Below are positions 4,892 to 55,454 of a DNA stretch of 64,000 nt, piece by piece. Made by a program: the position numbers and the translations under genes. Where the stretch lies: positions 1-64,000 of the forward strand of contig NZ_RCNV01000001.1 of assembly GCF_003667275.1 (NCBI RefSeq), written 5' to 3'. The notes below the pieces were generated by a model that saw only the letters and a program-made list of their open reading frames with translations, was not told the origin of the DNA and made no database searches. Position 1 is the stretch's first letter, and every line of letters begins with the position of its first letter. Source of the DNA: Mesonia aquimarina. Lineage in GTDB: Bacteria > Bacteroidota > Bacteroidia > Flavobacteriales > Flavobacteriaceae.

Positions 4892-5118
4892 TGCAATTGG
4901 TGTCCCTCAAGTTGGGTACCCATTTTTGCACTTTGGTTAAAGTGTCCTTTCACCAATTTGAAGAAAAGGATATCTGTTATGTAAGGGTTCATAAATCACA
5001 AAAACCTGTGTATTTGAATTTGAGTGACCGTTCGCATTTCTTTATCAGAACCGGGAATGGTACCCGTGAGTTGGATATGCCTGAGGCTCTGGAGTATTTG
5101 GAGATAGACTTAAATTAA
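4891..5118 (+). CDS. AlbA_2/Schlafen-like protein, C-terminal part (-1 frame)
   Basis: The frame entered by a -1 shift at 4861 reads PSKDGFDQYIMQLV across the upstream stop and continues to 5118. It carries the rest of the AlbA_2 domain, including DICYVRVHKS and the terminal FFIRTGNGTREL motif typical of the family (FYVRxGxST). As a separate 75-residue protein starting at 4891 it would lack its fold's N-terminal half, so I consider it the C-terminal exon-like piece of the gene at 4358. Confidence 0.55.
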   Translation: MQLVSLKLGTHFCTLVKVSFHQFEEKDICYVRVHKSQKPVYLNLSDRSHFFIRTGNGTRELDMPEALEYLEIDLN

Positions 5119-5142
5119 TATAGACCCTATAAAATTGAAAAA

Positions 5143-5409
5143 ATGATACAGGTATTGGACATAGAAAAAGAAAACTTGATTGCCGCTAAAGTCAATGGTA
5201 AAATCACAAAGAAGGATATAGAAAAAATCCATCCGCTCATCCACAACATCATCGGTAAAGATCATAAGGTGTAAAATGGCATTTGTAGGCGAAAAAAATA
5301 GCAGGAATGGGTCGCTAAAGCTACTGATTTCTTTACTGGTTCAGAAGTCAAATATTTTGACCTTCAGGATAAGGAACAAGCAAAAAACTGGATACAAATA
5401 ACTAAGGAT
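5143..5409 (+). pseudogene. Decayed SpoIIAA-like gene, copy 2
   Basis: The first 43 codons (5143-5274) match the start of the SpoIIAA-like protein at 15624, with KKDIEKIHPLIHNII. A stop then replaces the middle: the EMENF..GW segment, roughly 20-30 residues, is missing. The tail resumes as AFVGEK, with an in-frame TAG at 5299-5301 where the intact copies have Trp (GEKKWQ), and then reads QEWVAKATDFF and YFDLQDKEQAKNW. So it has an internal deletion, a one-base shift in an A-run and a nonsense codon. The tail frame stays open into the ATPase gene at 5410 with no stop between them. Confidence 0.75.
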
Positions 5410-7959
5410 ATGAAAAAACTAAAAATCAAAATTCCCGTAATCCTTCCACAGGTGCCAAATGAAAAAGACACTTGTGTGCAAAGGCTCATTGAAGAATTAG
5501 AAGCCAAAGAAGGTCTTGATAAAGTGCATATAAAAGACGATCAGGAAGATACGGTGCCACAATTGTACTTTCATTACGATCCGGATATAATTTCTATTGA
5601 CAGCATTCAATCATTGGCAGAAAGAACCGGGGCTGAAATTACCGCGAAATATGGACATTTGCTTATAGAGGTTGAGGGGATTAGGCATACCCGGCATGCA
5701 AGGACTTTAGAAAAGAGTCTGCTGAATATCAAAGGCGTTTTGGAAGCTTCCGCCAATGCCGGAGGAATGATCCGTTTAGAATATGATAAACGGGAAACAA
5801 GTTTTGATGAGATAACTACAAAGCTCGAAAAAGAAAACCTACAAGTCAAGAAAAGTGCCTCTGGCCATGAGAACGGCTTTAAATCTTCGGAAAAAACCTC
5901 TGATAAATTAAATAAAAAAAATAAGATGGGCCAGCGACACCAGCATGAAGATGAGGGAGTACAGAATCTTAAAGAAGCGGATAGCCACGGCGCCGGCGAA
6001 GATCATTCCCACGCACACGGAGGTATTTTTGGGAAAAATACAGAGCTTATTTTTGCCATTATTTGTGGGGTTTTGTTGGGGATAGGTTTTGGACTATCCT
6101 TTGTAGAATCAGTTCCGCAATGGGTTAGTCTTTCCCTTTATATTGGAGCCTATTTCTTTGGAGGGTTTTATACTGCTAAAGAAGCTGTGGAAACCGTAGC
6201 CAAAGGCGGGTTTGAAATTGATTTTCTCATGTTGGTCGCAGCGATTGGAGCGGCTATTTTAGGGGAATGGGCTGAAGGTGCCTTGTTATTATTTCTTTTT
6301 AGCCTGGGACATGCCCTGGAGCATTATGCAATGAACAAAGCACGAAAATCTATAGCCGCATTGGCAGAACTGGCGCCAAAAACAGCCTTGCTCAAAAAAG
6401 ATGGTAAGACGGAAGAAGTTGGTATCGAAAAACTCAATATTGGTGATATCATTGTGGTGAAACCAAATAGTAAAATATCTGCAGATGGCGTAGTGGTAGA
6501 TGGGCAGAGTAGCGTTAACCAGGCTCCAATAACCGGGGAGAGTGTACCGGTAGATAAAGTTCCTCTGAAAGACATCGAAAAGGATTACTCAGAGGTAGAT
6601 GATATCAAGGATGAAAACCGCGTTTTTGCTGGAACGATCAATGGGAATAATACTTTGGAAATTAAAGTGATCAAAGCAGCCAAAGATTCAACGCTTTCCC
6701 GATTGGTGAAACTGGTTAACGAAGCTCAGACTCAAAAATCGCCTACCCAGTTGCTCACCGATAAATTCGAAAAATATTTTGTGCCATCCGTCCTTATTTT
6801 GGTTGGTATTCTTTTATTCGCTTTTCTTGTAATAGACGAACCCTTTAGCGCCAGCTTTTACCGGGCTATGGCGGTACTGGTAGCTGCAAGTCCCTGTGCG
6901 TTGGCAATCTCGACCCCAAGTGCTGTATTGAGTGGAGTGGCCAGGGCCGCCCGTGGCGGGGTATTAATTAAAGGAGGCCGACCACTAGAGGATCTGGGAG
7001 AATTGACTGCCCTCGCCTTCGATAAAACCGGAACTCTAACGGAAGGAAAGCCAAAACTTACCCAAGTGGTGCCACTTGGAAATATATCTGAAAACGAACT
7101 TCTCAAAATAGCAGTAGCCGTGGAAGGTCTTAGTGATCACCCCCTGGCCAAAGCTGTAGTTCGTGATGGAAAAGAGCGTCTGGAAGGCGAGGAAATCCCA
7201 AATGCCTCTAATTTGGAGGCAGTTCTGGGTAAAGGGATTAAAGCATCATTTGGCAATGATAAAATCTATATAGGTAACCTCGACCTGTACGAAGGGCTTG
7301 ATGAGAGTACACCTTCCGAAAAAATAGCTACGAAAGTGCGTGGTCTTGAAGGTGGTGGAAATACAACAATGCTTATACGAAAAAATGAAGAATATATAGG
7401 CATCATTGCATTAATGGATACCCCTCGTGAAGCCGCCAAGGGAACCCTTAAAAAATTAAAAGAAATCGGCATTAAACGAATGATCATGCTTACCGGTGAT
7501 AACCAGAAGGTAGCAGACGCTGTAGCAGAAGAAATAGGATTGACCGATGCCTGGGGGAGCCTATTGCCGGAAGAAAAAGTGGATGCTATAAAAGAATTAA
7601 AAGAAAAGGAATCCAAGGTGGCAATGGTGGGCGATGGCGTTAATGATGCCCCTGCCATGGCAAACAGCACTGTAGGAATAGCTATGGGTGCTGCTGGAAG
7701 TGATGTGGCCCTAGAAACGGCGGATATTGCGCTAATGGCCGACAAGTTGGAAACCCTGCCCTTTGCCATAGGCTTAAGCAGGAAGGCAAAGGCGATTATC
7801 AGACAGAACCTTTGGGTAAGCCTTGGTATTGTTGCCCTACTTATACCTTCAACCATATTCGGCTTGGCAAATATTGGAATGGCGGTTGTAATCCATGAAG
7901 GTTCCACACTACTGGTGGTTTTTAATGCGTTAAGGCTTTTGGCTTATAAAAAAGAATAG
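5410..7959 (+). CDS. P1B-type metal-transporting ATPase, SPC class (P1B-4-like, CoaT/CtpD type)
   Basis: This 849-residue ATPase has a TGES actuator loop, DKTGTLT phosphorylation site (Asp about 538), SDHPLA, and MVGDGVNDAPAMA hinge. The ion path shows SPC (about 494, AASPCALAIS) rather than CPC, and HEGSTLL near 828 in the last helix. Together these are the P1B-4 signature, associated with Co, Fe or Zn export. The N-terminus has two HMA-like folds, but the CxxC metal site is replaced (EGIRHTRHARTL), and a His/Asp-rich linker (about 175-205) precedes the first helix. It reads through from a decayed SpoIIAA gene and is followed by a second Fur gene. Confidence 0.9.
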   Translation: MKKLKIKIPVILPQVPNEKDTCVQRLIEELEAKEGLDKVHIKDDQEDTVPQLYFHYDPDIISIDSIQSLAERTGAEITAKYGHLLIEVEGIRHTRHARTLEKSLLNIKGVLEASANAGGMIRLEYDKRETSFDEITTKLEKENLQVKKSASGHENGFKSSEKTSDKLNKKNKMGQRHQHEDEGVQNLKEADSHGAGEDHSHAHGGIFGKNTELIFAIICGVLLGIGFGLSFVESVPQWVSLSLYIGAYFFGGFYTAKEAVETVAKGGFEIDFLMLVAAIGAAILGEWAEGALLLFLFSLGHALEHYAMNKARKSIAALAELAPKTALLKKDGKTEEVGIEKLNIGDIIVVKPNSKISADGVVVDGQSSVNQAPITGESVPVDKVPLKDIEKDYSEVDDIKDENRVFAGTINGNNTLEIKVIKAAKDSTLSRLVKLVNEAQTQKSPTQLLTDKFEKYFVPSVLILVGILLFAFLVIDEPFSASFYRAMAVLVAASPCALAISTPSAVLSGVARAARGGVLIKGGRPLEDLGELTALAFDKTGTLTEGKPKLTQVVPLGNISENELLKIAVAVEGLSDHPLAKAVVRDGKERLEGEEIPNASNLEAVLGKGIKASFGNDKIYIGNLDLYEGLDESTPSEKIATKVRGLEGGGNTTMLIRKNEEYIGIIALMDTPREAAKGTLKKLKEIGIKRMIMLTGDNQKVADAVAEEIGLTDAWGSLLPEEKVDAIKELKEKESKVAMVGDGVNDAPAMANSTVGIAMGAAGSDVALETADIALMADKLETLPFAIGLSRKAKAIIRQNLWVSLGIVALLIPSTIFGLANIGMAVVIHEGSTLLVVFNALRLLAYKKE

Positions 7960-47081: not shown

Positions 47082-47429
47082 TTAACTATTGCCGTCCTTA
47101 GTACCTAACAAAAGAATTTCATTGGCTTCCACTTCGGTAACATATCTTTTGATACCGTCCTTGTCCTCGTAGCTTCGGGATTTCAGTTTTCCCGTTACCC
47201 CGATTTCTTTGCCCTTTCCGGCATATTTCTCGATGATTTCGGCAGTTTTGCCCCAGGCTACTATCGTGTGCCATTCGGTATTTTGGATTTTTTCGCCCTC
47301 GCTGTTTTTGTAATACTCATTTGTGGCGAGTGAAAGACGGGCTACCTTTTTACCGCTTTCAAGGTTCGTAATGGTTGGCTCCTGTCCAACGTTTCCGATC
47401 AACTGTACGTGATTTTTTAAAGTACTCAT
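47082..47429 (-). CDS. ssb: Single-stranded DNA-binding protein
   Basis: The 115-residue OB-fold protein starts MSTLKNHVQLIGNVGQEPTI, has ARLSLATNEYYKNSEGEKIQ, TEWHTIVAWGKTAEII and GKLKSRSYEDKDGIKRYVTE. The frame extends upstream to 47660 without a stop, but the extra 77 Lys-rich residues have no SSB character, so the start at 47429 fits the family. It lacks the acidic SSB tail of cellular copies and likely coats the transferred strand in ICE transfer. Confidence 0.88.
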   Translation of the reverse strand: MSTLKNHVQLIGNVGQEPTITNLESGKKVARLSLATNEYYKNSEGEKIQNTEWHTIVAWGKTAEIIEKYAGKGKEIGVTGKLKSRSYEDKDGIKRYVTEVEANEILLLGTKDGNS

Positions 47430-47851
47430 AATAAAAGATTTAAAGATTAATTGAAATGCTACCCGAGACCCATTCGGATAGTTTACGTTTATGTTTTTTT
47501 GAAGTGATTTACTTATTATATCCAGAGCGTTTTCCTTTTTTTGTTTTTTTAGTCCCGCTTCCTTTTTGATGTTTTTGTAAGATTTCATACTATTCAGTTT
47601 AGATTTACTTCCCATAGAGCCGTCCGCTGTTACCTTTTTTTGTTGCTGATACATTTTCAATATTTGGAATTAATAAGGACTTATAAAAGGGAGGTACGAC
47701 CGGTTATGCAGTCCGTTTAACTTCCAAATGTTGGTATTTTGCTTACAAAAAAACGGTTGGGACAGCGGCGGTGCGGGAGTAGGTCTAAATGCCTTTTGTG
47801 AAGTACAAAAACATAGGAGGCGGGACTAAATTATAAATGGAATTCCGATGA

Positions 47852-48241
47852 AAAGCGGACTCCGTTCACGGTTTCGTATTGGAATGGAGTGCGCTTCCCG
47901 GCAGCGCGGGAAGGGCAAACGGAACGGAAAGTAGCAATCGGGGACGGTGTCCAAGACCTTTGTAGGGAAGCGCTTTGCCCGGAATGTAGCTTTTCGCGGA
48001 ATGGAGCGGCAATGTGCTGACCGGCTTATGAAAACAGTTTATCCTTTGAAGTAGGATTTAAAGCGGACTTGACTTCAAAGATGTAGATGGGAATGGAGTT
48101 TGGCCGCTTCCCGACCTTTCTCGGGAATGGGCGGGCAAGTGGAATGGAAATCGAAAGCTTTGGAGTTGTGTCCAAGACCTTTTTAATGAAGCGCTTTTCC
48201 CGAAATGAAGCTTTTTCTGCGGAATGCAGGGGAATGGCTGA
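47852..48241. repeat. Two diverged tandem copies of a structured non-coding unit
   Basis: Unit A (47852-48020) and unit B (48060-48241) share AAGCGGACT, GGAATGGAGT, GTGTCCAAGACCTTT, AAGCGCTTT, and GCGGAATG in the same order with a period of about 208 bases. Both contain a CTTCCCG..CGGGAA hairpin with a changed loop (GCAGCG against CCTTTC), so the stem is kept. The 47430-48360 gap has no convincing gene. Non-coding RNA, recombination site or origin are options. Confidence 0.65.
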
Positions 48242-48360: not shown

Positions 48361-50880
48361 ATGAATATATTTAAGAAAAAATTAGAAGACACATCTCCAA
48401 AGGAATTAAATTTTGAACCGATAGAATTATTTCAAGATTTGTTTCATAAGGAGGGATACGCGTATTTAAGAGGAATACAGGAAGAGGTATTAAATTCTTG
48501 GCATAGCATAAGGGGTCAACGAGATGTTTTGTGCAAAATGAATACAGGGTCTGGAAAAACTCTGGTAAGCCTATTGATGCTGTACTCAAAAATGATTGAA
48601 GGAGTTGGTCCAAGTTTGTATCTATGTCCAGACAAACAATTATTAGAACAGGCAAAGTTGCAAGCGGATTTATATGGGATATCTGTCTGTGAAATTGAAT
48701 ATCACGGGCAAAGAAGTGTTTTTCCGGATGATTTTTTAAACTCAAAAGCCATCTTATTATGCACATTCCAAAAATTGTTCAATTCACGTTCCATTTTTGA
48801 AAGGGATAATATTGACGTTGGTTCAATCGTCCTTGATGATGCCCACGTCTGTCTTGACAAAGCTAGAGAAGCAACTACATTAAATATACCCTTCAAACAC
48901 GACTTGGCAGATAGGTTACTGAAGTTATTCGAAGAAGAACTGAAATACCAAGCCCCAGGAACTTATCACAGACTAATTCAAGGTGATCCGTATGCGAAAA
49001 TACTCAAAGTCCCTTATTGGGCTTGGTTAACTCGTATTAACGAGTTAATAAAACTAATAGGCAGTTTTAGTGAAGACAGAGAACTTATGTTCAAATGGGG
49101 TTTAATAGCTGACGACTTGAAATCTTACGATTGTTATGTCGGGCCCAAAGGAATTGAGATAGCACCATCCTATGTGCCATTTCATAATATTAGAGCTTTT
49201 AATGAGGCCAAACATAGATATATTTTATCTGCTACATTTGAAGATCAGATTGATTTAATTAAAGATTTAGGTATTAATATTAATAGTATAAAGAATGCCT
49301 TGATCCCTAAAGATCGTAAAGACGTTGGGCAAAGATTGATCCTTGCTCCTCAAAGATTTGATTCAAGAATAACAGATAAGCAGATTATGACATTGGCCAA
49401 AGAATATTCTGAATCTGGTATAAATGTAATGGTACTAACACCTTCCTCTAATAGGGCGACTAAATGGGAAGATTTTGGTGCAGAAATAATTAATAATGAT
49501 AATATAAATGAAGACATCGCCAAATTAAGAACTGAGAAAGGATTATTCTATGTTTTAGTTAATCGCTACGATGGGGTTGACTTGAATGGAGATATGTGCC
49601 GAGTTTTAATATTAGATGGTTACCCATCATTCAGTTCTTATGAACAACTTTATGCGGAATTACGCTTGGAATCTGTCAAGGCTTCTTTGAAAGCGCAGAT
49701 AATAGAACAAGGACTTGGTAGAGCTGTAAGATCAGGCAGCGATTATTGTACGGTTTATTTAATGGGTAAAGATTTACTGCAATTTGTGGGTAACAAATCA
49801 AACTTGCAATATTTCACACCAGTAACCCGAAAACAACTGAAACTTGGACTATCACTTCTAGATGATGAATCTACTGATAACTCTCTTCAGACTATTAGGG
49901 ATACCGCAAACTTATGCTTAGTTCAAGATATGAGCTGGAGGGAATATCATTCAGAAATACTGTCAAAAGTGGATGTTGAAAAAACTGACGAACGAATCAT
50001 AAAAAATCTAGAGGTTGCAGATTCTGAATCACAAGCAATCGAAAATTACAGAAGAAGGGATTTTGAAGGTGCATCGAAGCTAATATTAGATAAAATAGTT
50101 GATACGGTTGAATTGACCGACAAGCAGAAGGGCTGGTATTTTGAAAAAGCAGCTAATTATCTTCACTTAGATAATGCACCAAAATCAAATGACCTTCAAA
50201 TTAAAGCAGCACAAACAACTTCCCATATGCTGCAATCAAAAAATGGACATAGTTATACGAAAATTATGGCTAGTGAAGAGCAGGCATCTCAAGTTTTAAA
50301 TTTTATCAAGCAATTTGAGACTTCCCAAGACTTTAAAATGTATTTTGAAACCTTATTGGAAAATCTTCAATTTAGTCAAGATATACCTCATACGAAATTT
50401 GAGAATGCTTTTGCTGAAATAGGTAGGCTTATAGGTTTTTACACTCAGGAACCTGAAGCGGAATTTGGAAATGGCCCTGATGTACTATGGGTGATGACTG
50501 GAAATCATTACCTCGTTTTAGAAGCCAAGTCTAGAGCCATACACGATGAAATCACCAGAGATAATATTAATCAATTGTTAGGTTCAGGTGAATGGTTCAA
50601 AAAACTCTATGGGGGTGCTGCAAATTTTAATTTGGTTACCATTCAACCTCCAAATATAAAAGGATGGAATGTAAATACAAGTGAAAATACACGAGTGATT
50701 GATGAAGAATCATTAAATTTATTAAAAGATAATCTTAGAAGATTTGTTGATGGAATCAATAATTCAGGTTTCACGGCAACTAGTACTAAAGAAATAGCTA
50801 ACTTATTGGGCATACACAATTTAACGACAAACGGTTTTTTGAAAAGTTTCTTAAAACCTGTAATTTCTAAAAAAGGATAA
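48361..50880 (+). CDS. Helicase with C-terminal PD-(D/E)XK nuclease domain (putative defence protein)
   Basis: The 839-residue protein has an SF2 helicase core: Walker A MNTGSGKTLVSLLML (about 61-67), motif II IVLDDAH (DDAH in place of DEAH, about 160) and motif VI EQGLGRAVRSGS (about 450). A helical middle section follows. The C-terminus (about 675-750) has GPDVLWVM and HYLVLEAKSRA, a PD-(D/E)XK pattern D..EAK. Helicase-nuclease fusions of this shape are typical of anti-mobile-element proteins and of some restriction systems, but no methyltransferase or partner is adjacent. A tRNA gene starts 10 bases after the stop. Helicase call firm; nuclease call good; role inferred. Confidence 0.8.
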   Translation: MNIFKKKLEDTSPKELNFEPIELFQDLFHKEGYAYLRGIQEEVLNSWHSIRGQRDVLCKMNTGSGKTLVSLLMLYSKMIEGVGPSLYLCPDKQLLEQAKLQADLYGISVCEIEYHGQRSVFPDDFLNSKAILLCTFQKLFNSRSIFERDNIDVGSIVLDDAHVCLDKAREATTLNIPFKHDLADRLLKLFEEELKYQAPGTYHRLIQGDPYAKILKVPYWAWLTRINELIKLIGSFSEDRELMFKWGLIADDLKSYDCYVGPKGIEIAPSYVPFHNIRAFNEAKHRYILSATFEDQIDLIKDLGININSIKNALIPKDRKDVGQRLILAPQRFDSRITDKQIMTLAKEYSESGINVMVLTPSSNRATKWEDFGAEIINNDNINEDIAKLRTEKGLFYVLVNRYDGVDLNGDMCRVLILDGYPSFSSYEQLYAELRLESVKASLKAQIIEQGLGRAVRSGSDYCTVYLMGKDLLQFVGNKSNLQYFTPVTRKQLKLGLSLLDDESTDNSLQTIRDTANLCLVQDMSWREYHSEILSKVDVEKTDERIIKNLEVADSESQAIENYRRRDFEGASKLILDKIVDTVELTDKQKGWYFEKAANYLHLDNAPKSNDLQIKAAQTTSHMLQSKNGHSYTKIMASEEQASQVLNFIKQFETSQDFKMYFETLLENLQFSQDIPHTKFENAFAEIGRLIGFYTQEPEAEFGNGPDVLWVMTGNHYLVLEAKSRAIHDEITRDNINQLLGSGEWFKKLYGGAANFNLVTIQPPNIKGWNVNTSENTRVIDEESLNLLKDNLRRFVDGINNSGFTATSTKEIANLLGIHNLTTNGFLKSFLKPVISKKG

Positions 50881-50889
50881 TCTTTTAAA

Positions 50890-50976
50890 ATATAGGTGGT
50901 CGAGTGGTCTAAGGCACCTGATTGAAGATCAGGCGTACGGGAAACTGTACCGGGAGTTCGAATCTTCCTCTATCCG
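50890..50976 (+). tRNA. Class II tRNA with GAA (Phe) anticodon and Ser-like body
   Basis: D-arm GTCGAGTGGTCTAAGGC, anticodon stem CCTGA/TCAGG around loop TTGAAGA (anticodon GAA), long variable arm with a 6-pair stem (GTACGG/CTGTAC, one G-U pair) capped by GAAA, T-arm GGGAG/CTTCC around TTCGAAT, discriminator G (50976). The long arm and G73 are tRNA-Ser traits while GAA is the Phe anticodon. The acceptor stem has two mismatches (A1-C72, T2-C71) and one G-T pair, so the 5' end is damaged. Either a decayed tRNA or a recoding tRNA. Confidence 0.65.
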
Positions 50977-50994
50977 CAAATACGTAAGTATTAT

Positions 50995-51018
50995 AGCCCG
51001 CAGCTTCTGTTGCGGGCT
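50995..51018 (+). terminator. Hairpin after the tRNA
   Basis: AGCCCGCA (50995-51002) pairs with TGCGGGCT (51011-51018), 18 bases after the tRNA, followed by TGTTGG. The T-run is weak, so it may be a processing or weak terminator hairpin. Confidence 0.5.
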
Positions 51019-51141
51019 TGTTGGTTAAATCAAGACCTTGAAATGAAACACTTTTTTTGAATACAGCTTTTCCAACAACGTAAGAGAGGAATTAAGTGTA
51101 ATTTGTGTACCAATGAGTAGACACAACCTGATATTTAAAAA

Positions 51142-55382: not shown

Positions 55383-55410
55383 TTTTGGTGTCTATTGACA
55401 CCGTAATTGT

Positions 55411-55454
55411 CGGGGTGGCAGGATTCGAACCTGCGACCTCCTGCTCCCAAAGCA
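55411..55454 (-). other. attachment site: 3' fragment of tRNA-Pro(UGG)
   Basis: On the - strand the sequence reads from the anticodon stem-loop (TGCTTTGGGAGCAGG, anticodon TGG) through the variable and T-arms (GGTTCGAATCC) to the acceptor end CCACCCCG. The 5' half is absent; AT-rich DNA replaces it at 55455. This is the duplicated core left by insertion of an element into tRNA-Pro. The remaining 55228-55741 gap holds only the repeats listed and AT-rich sequence. Confidence 0.85.

Follow-up and report, generated by a model that had tools for sequence, protein, structure and literature searches.

A class II tRNA gene with a serine-type body and a GAA anticodon accompanies the defence gene hna in Flavobacteriaceae

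Why should a tRNA gene that joins a serine-type body to the anticodon GAA stand directly behind a nuclease gene, and what might its product do there? The question was raised by a window of 64,000 bases, the window being the whole stretch of DNA analysed (bases 1–64000 of contig 11 in a genome of 3.28 Mb and 25 contigs). A preliminary description made from the letters had pointed to a class II tRNA with a Ser-type body, the anticodon GAA in a loop TTGAAGA and two acceptor mismatches, A1-C72 and T2-C71. Each of these traits was recovered here. ARAGORN called tRNA-Phe(gaa) at 50890–50977 on the forward strand, the sole tRNA found in the window, and the Rfam family RF00005 matched 50890–50976 (+) above its gathering threshold of 29 bits, with the lowest score (34 bits) among the 36 matches in the genome. 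The drawn cloverleaf contained GAA within TTGAAGA, left both mismatched acceptor pairs open and gave the discriminator G73; the Ser-type body was borne out by G73 and by the single base between variable arm and T stem. The features are listed in Table 1.

Table 1. Coordinates of the odd tRNA gene, its parts and its immediate neighbours in the window
Feature	Position	Strand	Basis
hna ortholog, 839 aa, SF2 helicase domains and C-terminal PD-(D/E)XK-type nuclease (GPD...EAKS)	48361–50880	+	Pfam, PADLOC, phmmer
Class II tRNA gene, Ser-type body, anticodon GAA, A1xC72 and T2xC71 unpaired, G73	50890–50976	+	ARAGORN, Rfam, cloverleaf drawing
Anticodon GAA, followed by G37; GAA in 10/10 alleles	50924–50926	+	Allele alignment
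Variable arm, 6 bp, tetraloop GAAA in the window allele	50935–50950	+	Cloverleaf drawing, allele pair counts
Short hairpin AATAC-GTAA-GTATT immediately downstream of the tRNA	50979–50992	+	Alignment, predicted pairs 105–118 to 109–114
G+C-rich terminator-like stem, then TGTTGGTT	50995–51018	+	Alignment, consensus fold

Cloverleaves were drawn for 33 distinct tRNAs of the host genome. Pair 2:71 was absent only in the odd tRNA, and pair 1:72 only in the odd tRNA and in a single tRNA-Met(cat) whose first base is C, which we read as the initiator type. Besides a normal tRNA-Phe(gaa), the host set contains tRNA-Ser with three anticodons (gct, gga and tga). A37 was present in all eight host tRNAs whose anticodon ends in A (A36) and G37 in all eight whose anticodon ends in G; the odd tRNA, against this pattern, combines A36 with G37.

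The class of the body was assigned by comparison with ordinary tRNAs. All three host tRNA-Ser have G73 as the odd tRNA does, and A73 was found in the host Leu, Tyr and normal Phe tRNAs. One unpaired base separates the variable arm from the T stem in the odd tRNA and the host tRNA-Ser, two in the host Leu tRNAs and three in tRNA-Tyr, where the arm was drawn. A covariance model built from the odd tRNAs (R1) scored its own kind at 104–114 bits and, among the ordinary tRNAs given, ranked two tRNA-Ser(gga) of relatives highest (90.8 and 82.5 bits); the host Ser tRNAs reached 70.6, 67.8 and 47.8 bits and the Leu tRNAs included 37.5–43.4 bits. Because of G73, the Ser-like arm spacing and this ranking, the body is considered Ser-type and the GAA anticodon is not. 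The closest ordinary tRNA by R1 among those tested (90.8 bits) is a tRNA-Ser(GGA) from another family of the order Flavobacteriales (L037), which is 73% identical over query bases 3–99 and, by eye, has most of the variable arm in common; unlike the odd tRNA, it carries G1-C72, G2-C71, a GGA loop and A37.

The RNA thus has the long variable arm with Ser spacing and the G73 of an elongator tRNA-Ser and lacks two of its other traits: A1xC72 and Y2xC71 replace G1-C72 and G2-C71 in 10/10 distinct alleles (defined below), and GAA replaces a Ser anticodon in as many. PMC9976931 describes G1-C72 and G2-C71 as absolutely conserved in E. coli and in the tRNA-Ser of most bacteria; at the first of these pairs, Ser(gga) of the host itself carries A1-T72. 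A tRNA-Phe would be expected to have GAA followed by A37, a class I body and A73; the body here is class II with G73, and base 37 is G in eight of the ten alleles, A in one and T in one. It is highly improbable that the RNA is nevertheless of Phe type or of dual identity, charged by PheRS as an extra Phe isoacceptor for the element. Its G34, A35 and A36, given as PheRS determinants in PMC9976931, are invariant, as are G30-C40 and A31-U39, which are common to the host tRNA-Phe and named there as recognition elements for human PheRS. These two pairs, however, also occur in other host tRNAs, such as Arg(acg) and Thr(tgt), the discriminator is G73 rather than A73, the variable arm is long, the acceptor top is open, and the host already has a normal tRNA-Phe (L014).

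The gene in front of the tRNA encodes a protein with the Pfam domains DEAD/ResIII and Helicase_C_2, which matched the PADLOC candidate PDC-S28 with 937 bits. Using phmmer, its residues 4–830 were aligned to residues 4–837 of a solved protein (PDB 10uj/9yhn/9ykj; E 1.2e-120), with GPD and EAKS of the window protein falling on GPD and ECKS of the PDB chain. The PDB table names this entry 'Helicase ATP-binding domain-containing protein'; its length, taken together with the Hna structure paper, leads us to infer that the chain is the Hna of S. meliloti. A tblastn search with the window protein also found S. meliloti pSymA (30.6%), the replicon on which hna is placed by PMC12445080. With full-length homology, helicase and nuclease domains and the GPD...E.K motif all present, the gene is, judged by its sequence, an ortholog of hna, whose product would act as a helicase/ssDNA exonuclease in abortive infection. 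In PMC13381803, Hna is described as a 3'-5' ssDNA exonuclease that is held as an ATP-bound inhibited dimer and released by phage SSB, upon which abortive infection follows; Hna with a disturbed catalytic balance is toxic. The tRNA had been placed 10 bases after a nuclease gene; its position directly behind that gene stands, and the gap is corrected to 9 nt.

Related Hna loci were collected from public genomes. They numbered 19, comprising 18 close ones (73–96% identity), all in Flavobacteriaceae with Salinimicrobium nearest, and one fragment of 29%. Just behind the hna stop codon, ARAGORN called tRNA-Phe(gaa) in 15 of the 18 close homologs; a sixteenth carrier (L092), uncalled by ARAGORN, was detected by a regular expression and R1 (104.4 bits), and the two Kordia loci among the 18 are without the odd tRNA. 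The gap between hna stop and tRNA, 9 nt in the window, is 10–13 nt in the 16 carriers (10 nt in L092, measured from the frame end). The carriers belong to Salinimicrobium, Zunongwangia, Leeuwenhoekiella, Galbibacter, Aequorivita, Maribacter, Aureibaculum, Lacinutrix, Aquimarina and Allomuricauda, with one record bearing no genus name, and include near copies, Hna being identical within L081–L084, L088/L096 and L089/L090. In 15 carriers the DNA homology to the window takes in hna, tRNA, small hairpin and terminator together with part or all of the conjugation genes at 43–46 kb, as far as the contigs reach. It ends at 51026–51028 in 14/16 carriers and at 51044 in two Salinimicrobium loci. The homology around hna in L092 consists of hna, tRNA and terminator only (48361–51026), without the conjugation region, and its other neighbours are unlike those of the window except for the downstream integrase (49.6% identical); since its element shares this related integrase with the window, L092 is not a fully independent case.

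Outside this set, neither ARAGORN nor R1 found such a tRNA in the flanks (up to 1.5 kb) of nine other whole-genome Hna homologs, one of which (L238) is a fragment at a contig end, and R1 found none beside eight Hna homologs from plasmid and phage records. A midpoint-rooted tree of 35 Hna rows sets the 17 tRNA-bearing rows on one side of a branch with support 95/97 and has some long branches elsewhere; the presence of the tRNA takes one change on this tree, a result that holds in 93% of 200 bootstrap trees. Just outside this clade stand Kordia and L235, a homolog from the same family with 62% identity. From the tree and the absence in other homologs, it follows that the tRNA was probably gained once and then travelled with hna. 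The recurrence of the same RNA behind the same gene in other genera is, as far as the sequences tell, more than chance, and the odd tRNA is very probably a conserved partner gene of hna.

Copies away from hna were searched for in several collections. A DNA search of 397 genomes of the family, in which two candidates were scored per genome, gave three strong matches besides the window (E 6e-34 to 1e-29), all behind hna and belonging to the genomes of L086, L088 and L096. Of the weaker matches, those examined were ordinary tRNA-Ser (L042, L043, L054 and L055), and others are short pieces. Among 295 genomes of the class, the covariance model applied at E 1e-23 with strict filters returned the window only. 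In viral contigs, two degenerate patterns hit 123 new loci without a class II GAA tRNA. A third pattern hit five stretches, of which only one (L006) has such a tRNA; all its 3,484 bases agree with the window, so that it stems from the same genome or one nearly identical. In records of plasmids and phages, the long matches were 71–78% identical, the phage matches listed being annotated as tRNA-Ser or, twice, as tRNA-Thr and the plasmid matches carrying no annotation.

For pair counting, the 16 carriers and the window were collapsed to ten distinct alleles. In their alignment 63/89 columns are invariant, including U33-G34-A35-A36 and two hallmarks of the tertiary fold, the D-loop GG and the T loop TTCGAAT, and positions 32, 37 and 38 of the anticodon loop vary; because so many columns are invariant, the constancy of GAA is by itself weak evidence. 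The D, variable and T stems are paired at 100% and the anticodon stem at 98%. Pairs 1:72 and 2:71 are open in all ten alleles, and the 5' end reads A, then T or C, then ATAG in every one. Two pairs have changed on both sides. The observed percentage paired, number of cells changed on both sides or covariation score was reached by 2/500 shuffles, the count of pairs changed on both sides by 41/500 and the type measure by 249/500, and one slid control gave three pairs changed on both sides against the two observed. Covariation is therefore modest, and conservation is the stronger argument.

The tRNA differs from that of the window at 5–12 of 89 sites across the 16 carriers. At fourfold sites of hna, differences from the window amount to 59–70% in 14/16 carriers, in which synonymous sites are near saturation, but to only 27% in the two Salinimicrobium loci; the value for L087, counted without gaps, is 63% (147/233). 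Over the last 50 hna codons, third positions differ by 38–56% in six of seven loci and the tRNA by 6–13%; in the seventh (L079), both differ by 6%. As a separate observation, hna of L087 (Maribacter sp. 4G9, 5001–7520) has an in-frame stop at codon 47, possibly an assembly error, followed by an intact frame of 784 aa from codon 56 and an intact tRNA. The preliminary description had suspected that the tRNA was decayed or that an insertion had altered its 5' end. This suspicion is contradicted by the recurrence of the same 5' end and the same mispairs in 10/10 alleles, and by the complete pairing of the D, variable and T stems while the third positions of the adjoining hna diverge. Since it occupies the same place in many relatives, the odd tRNA looks like a working part rather than debris.

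Around the cassette, conjugation genes (a P-loop TraG, TraM and a coupling protein) lie at 31.6–44.4 kb, an SSB gene at 47.1–47.7 kb and a tyrosine integrase gene at 53.9–55.2 kb, and a 46-bp repeat at 55409–55454 recurs at 89765–89810 on contig 11 as the 3' part of a tRNA-Pro(tgg). An integrative conjugative element is the likely setting, given the conjugation genes, the integrase and the tRNA-Pro repeat; a left end of this putative element was not found in the search. Mobile elements often carry tRNA pieces, and the odd RNA could be a relic of a tRNA-Ser that an ancestral element captured at its attachment site and that is now drifting, a history to which the att-like repeat, itself a piece of a tRNA, would lend some colour. 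Such an origin is very unlikely: the repeat derives from a different tRNA at a distance of 4.4 kb, the odd tRNA is whole and evolves more slowly than hna in most comparisons, and the relic explanation appears largely refuted by this conservation. Within the 100 kb examined, a small number of pieces of the region, 12 to 14 nt long, occur again; the longest, taken from the tRNA's 3' edge, is found at 65035 in a 592-codon open frame and not at a recognised element end.

Other candidates for element ends were discarded. The odd tRNA itself was rejected as attachment site, the att-like repeat belonging to tRNA-Pro(tgg). In two genomes (G172 and G282), an 18-nt stretch matching the tRNA's 3' edge lies some 4.3 kb upstream, inside a 73-codon open frame on the opposite strand, and a 19-nt match in a third (G416, L063), with surroundings similar by eye, falls in a 94-codon open frame; all three were taken for chance matches. 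The 46-bp repeat also suggests that another island, about 34 kb long, lies between the integrase and the intact tRNA-Pro.

Downstream of the tRNA, the short hairpin has, by eye, a GNRA-type loop in 9/10 alleles. Together with the terminator it suits a putative co-transcription of the tRNA with hna. The cloverleaf is the minimum-energy fold in none of the ten alleles; as a control, it is the minimum in only 5/33 host tRNAs, and the energy gap of the window allele (4.9 kcal/mol) falls inside the span covered by the remaining 32 host tRNAs (0–7.6). Compared with shuffles, the 87-nt RNA alone is not more stable (z -0.65, 48/200 as good), but the 147-nt stretch from leader to terminator is (z -2.39, 1/200 as good), mostly owing to the two downstream hairpins. 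RNAalifold on the extended alignment drew the anticodon, variable and T arms and left out the acceptor and D stems.

This arrangement bears on the idea that the tRNA shape is only a cis element at the end of the hna message, without function in trans, where RNase P and 3' processing would set the mRNA end and hold a toxic nuclease low. The tRNA follows the hna stop within 9 nt in the window and 10–13 nt in the carriers, the conserved hairpin and terminator come next, where the DNA homology stops, and the reported toxicity of unbalanced Hna (PMC13381803) would give such control a use. Neither the conserved U33-GAA nor the conserved frayed acceptor would be required of a processing element, however, and a well-paired acceptor should be the better substrate, so that we regard this explanation as distinctly unlikely.

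The loss of both 1:72 and 2:71 and the G37 after A36, with elbow, arms and anticodon nevertheless kept, lead us to place the function mainly outside elongation: the RNA would be a tRNA-shaped accessory of the Hna cassette, acting as a decoy or regulator or through a similar accessory mechanism, a reading to which we assign a probability of roughly 40%. The transcription unit would then run from hna through its stop, 9 nt, the tRNA and the small hairpin to the terminator, and ordinary tRNA-processing enzymes would cut the tRNA out of the transcript. The charging end of the product would be frayed, while its body, elbow, variable arm, U33 and GAA anticodon would still be recognisable. In its likeliest form it would serve as decoy or sensor for a recogniser of the GAA anticodon arm or the class II body; possible targets are PheRS, SerRS or a phage- or host-encoded enzyme that cuts tRNAs. 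Several points weigh against the accessory RNA: the 9 whole-genome and 8 plasmid and phage homologs of Hna do without such a tRNA, covariation is modest and in no allele does the cloverleaf have the lowest energy, fourfold sites in Salinimicrobium differ at only 27%, and in L079 the last hna codons differ no more than the tRNA.

The same frayed acceptor could instead belong to a tuned missense tRNA, weakly charged by SerRS, which disregards the anticodon, and inserting Ser at some Phe codons, as the preliminary description had proposed in case the tRNA is active; the open pairs and G37 would limit the damage in healthy cells. Such mistranslation might be a second arm of abortive infection or tolerated noise. 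The Ser-type body, with its one-base spacer and the G73 of all three host tRNA-Ser, and the first rank of tRNA-Ser among the ordinary tRNAs given to R1 fit this proposal, and altering 1:72 dampens a mistranslating tRNA-Ser in yeast, according to PMC6827378. Two pairs that are near-universal in bacterial tRNA-Ser are lost, however, G37 follows A36, and mispairs so constant resemble the outcome of selection against charging or against use by EF-Tu, from which initiator tRNA is kept away by a mispair at 1:72. No shift between Ser and Phe was seen in Hna itself, 0/449 fixed columns having Ser in the three tRNA-less and Phe in the tRNA-bearing proteins, a result that bears on reassignment and not on low-level mistranslation. 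We consider the missense tRNA unlikely, although it is the main rival. A broader proposal, that Hna forms in this clade a two-part anti-phage cassette in which the RNA, with a selectively crippled charging end and a Phe anticodon, acts during infection as bait, sensor or inducible missense agent, is made tentatively and is itself doubtful. Were it true, a tRNA would be part of the working machinery of a defence system and not its target. The odd tRNA also offers a natural test of what retains, against purging, a tRNA whose serine body is combined with a foreign anticodon and whose acceptor end is unpaired.

To our knowledge, the nev-tRNAs of nematodes are linked to no particular gene and have no frayed acceptor. 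They resemble the odd tRNA in joining a class II body to a foreign anticodon, and differ in accepting Leu and in being eukaryotic (PMC4300185). Allo-tRNAs, described in PMC7609411 as Ser-accepting class II tRNAs with non-Ser anticodons, are likewise class II and Ser-type, their anticodons being mostly not for Ser. Their acceptor domain, however, has 12 bp in an 8/4 or 9/3 layout, whereas the odd tRNA has a 7/5 layout with its two top pairs open (5/7 acceptor pairs formed); moreover, that paper places them in Clostridia, Proteobacteria and Acidobacteria, whereas the odd tRNA occurs in Flavobacteriaceae, tied to hna. The S. meliloti Hna system is alike in its protein, to which the window protein is orthologous over the whole length, but is described as a single-effector system (PMC13381803 and PMC12445080). 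The word 'tRNA' is not mentioned in the main texts of these two papers, and no tRNA lies beside the S. meliloti pSymA hna (L265). Searches of open-licence papers listed no description of an hna-tRNA pairing or of a defence gene with an altered tRNA of its own. Attack on tRNAs is a known strategy of bacterial defence systems, and tRNAs carried by some phages serve for escape (PMC12409363 and PMC11555353); a defence gene that itself supplies an altered tRNA would be an arrangement different from the tRNA as target.

Three further observations concern the surroundings of hna. A 40,103-bp contig of a viral collection (L006, L078) begins with the first base of the hna start codon (48361), and the element around this start looks conjugative rather than viral. 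Upstream of hna, a 48-nt direct repeat (88%) occupies 47947–47994 and 48168–48215; L085 has further copies, as does L080, where they lie on the downstream side of the cassette. The SSB gene of the element (47082–47660, reverse strand) lies divergently just upstream of hna, and an SSB homolog takes the same position in 6/10 annotated loci; as the reported trigger of Hna is a phage SSB, the pairing of hna with SSB may be more than chance.
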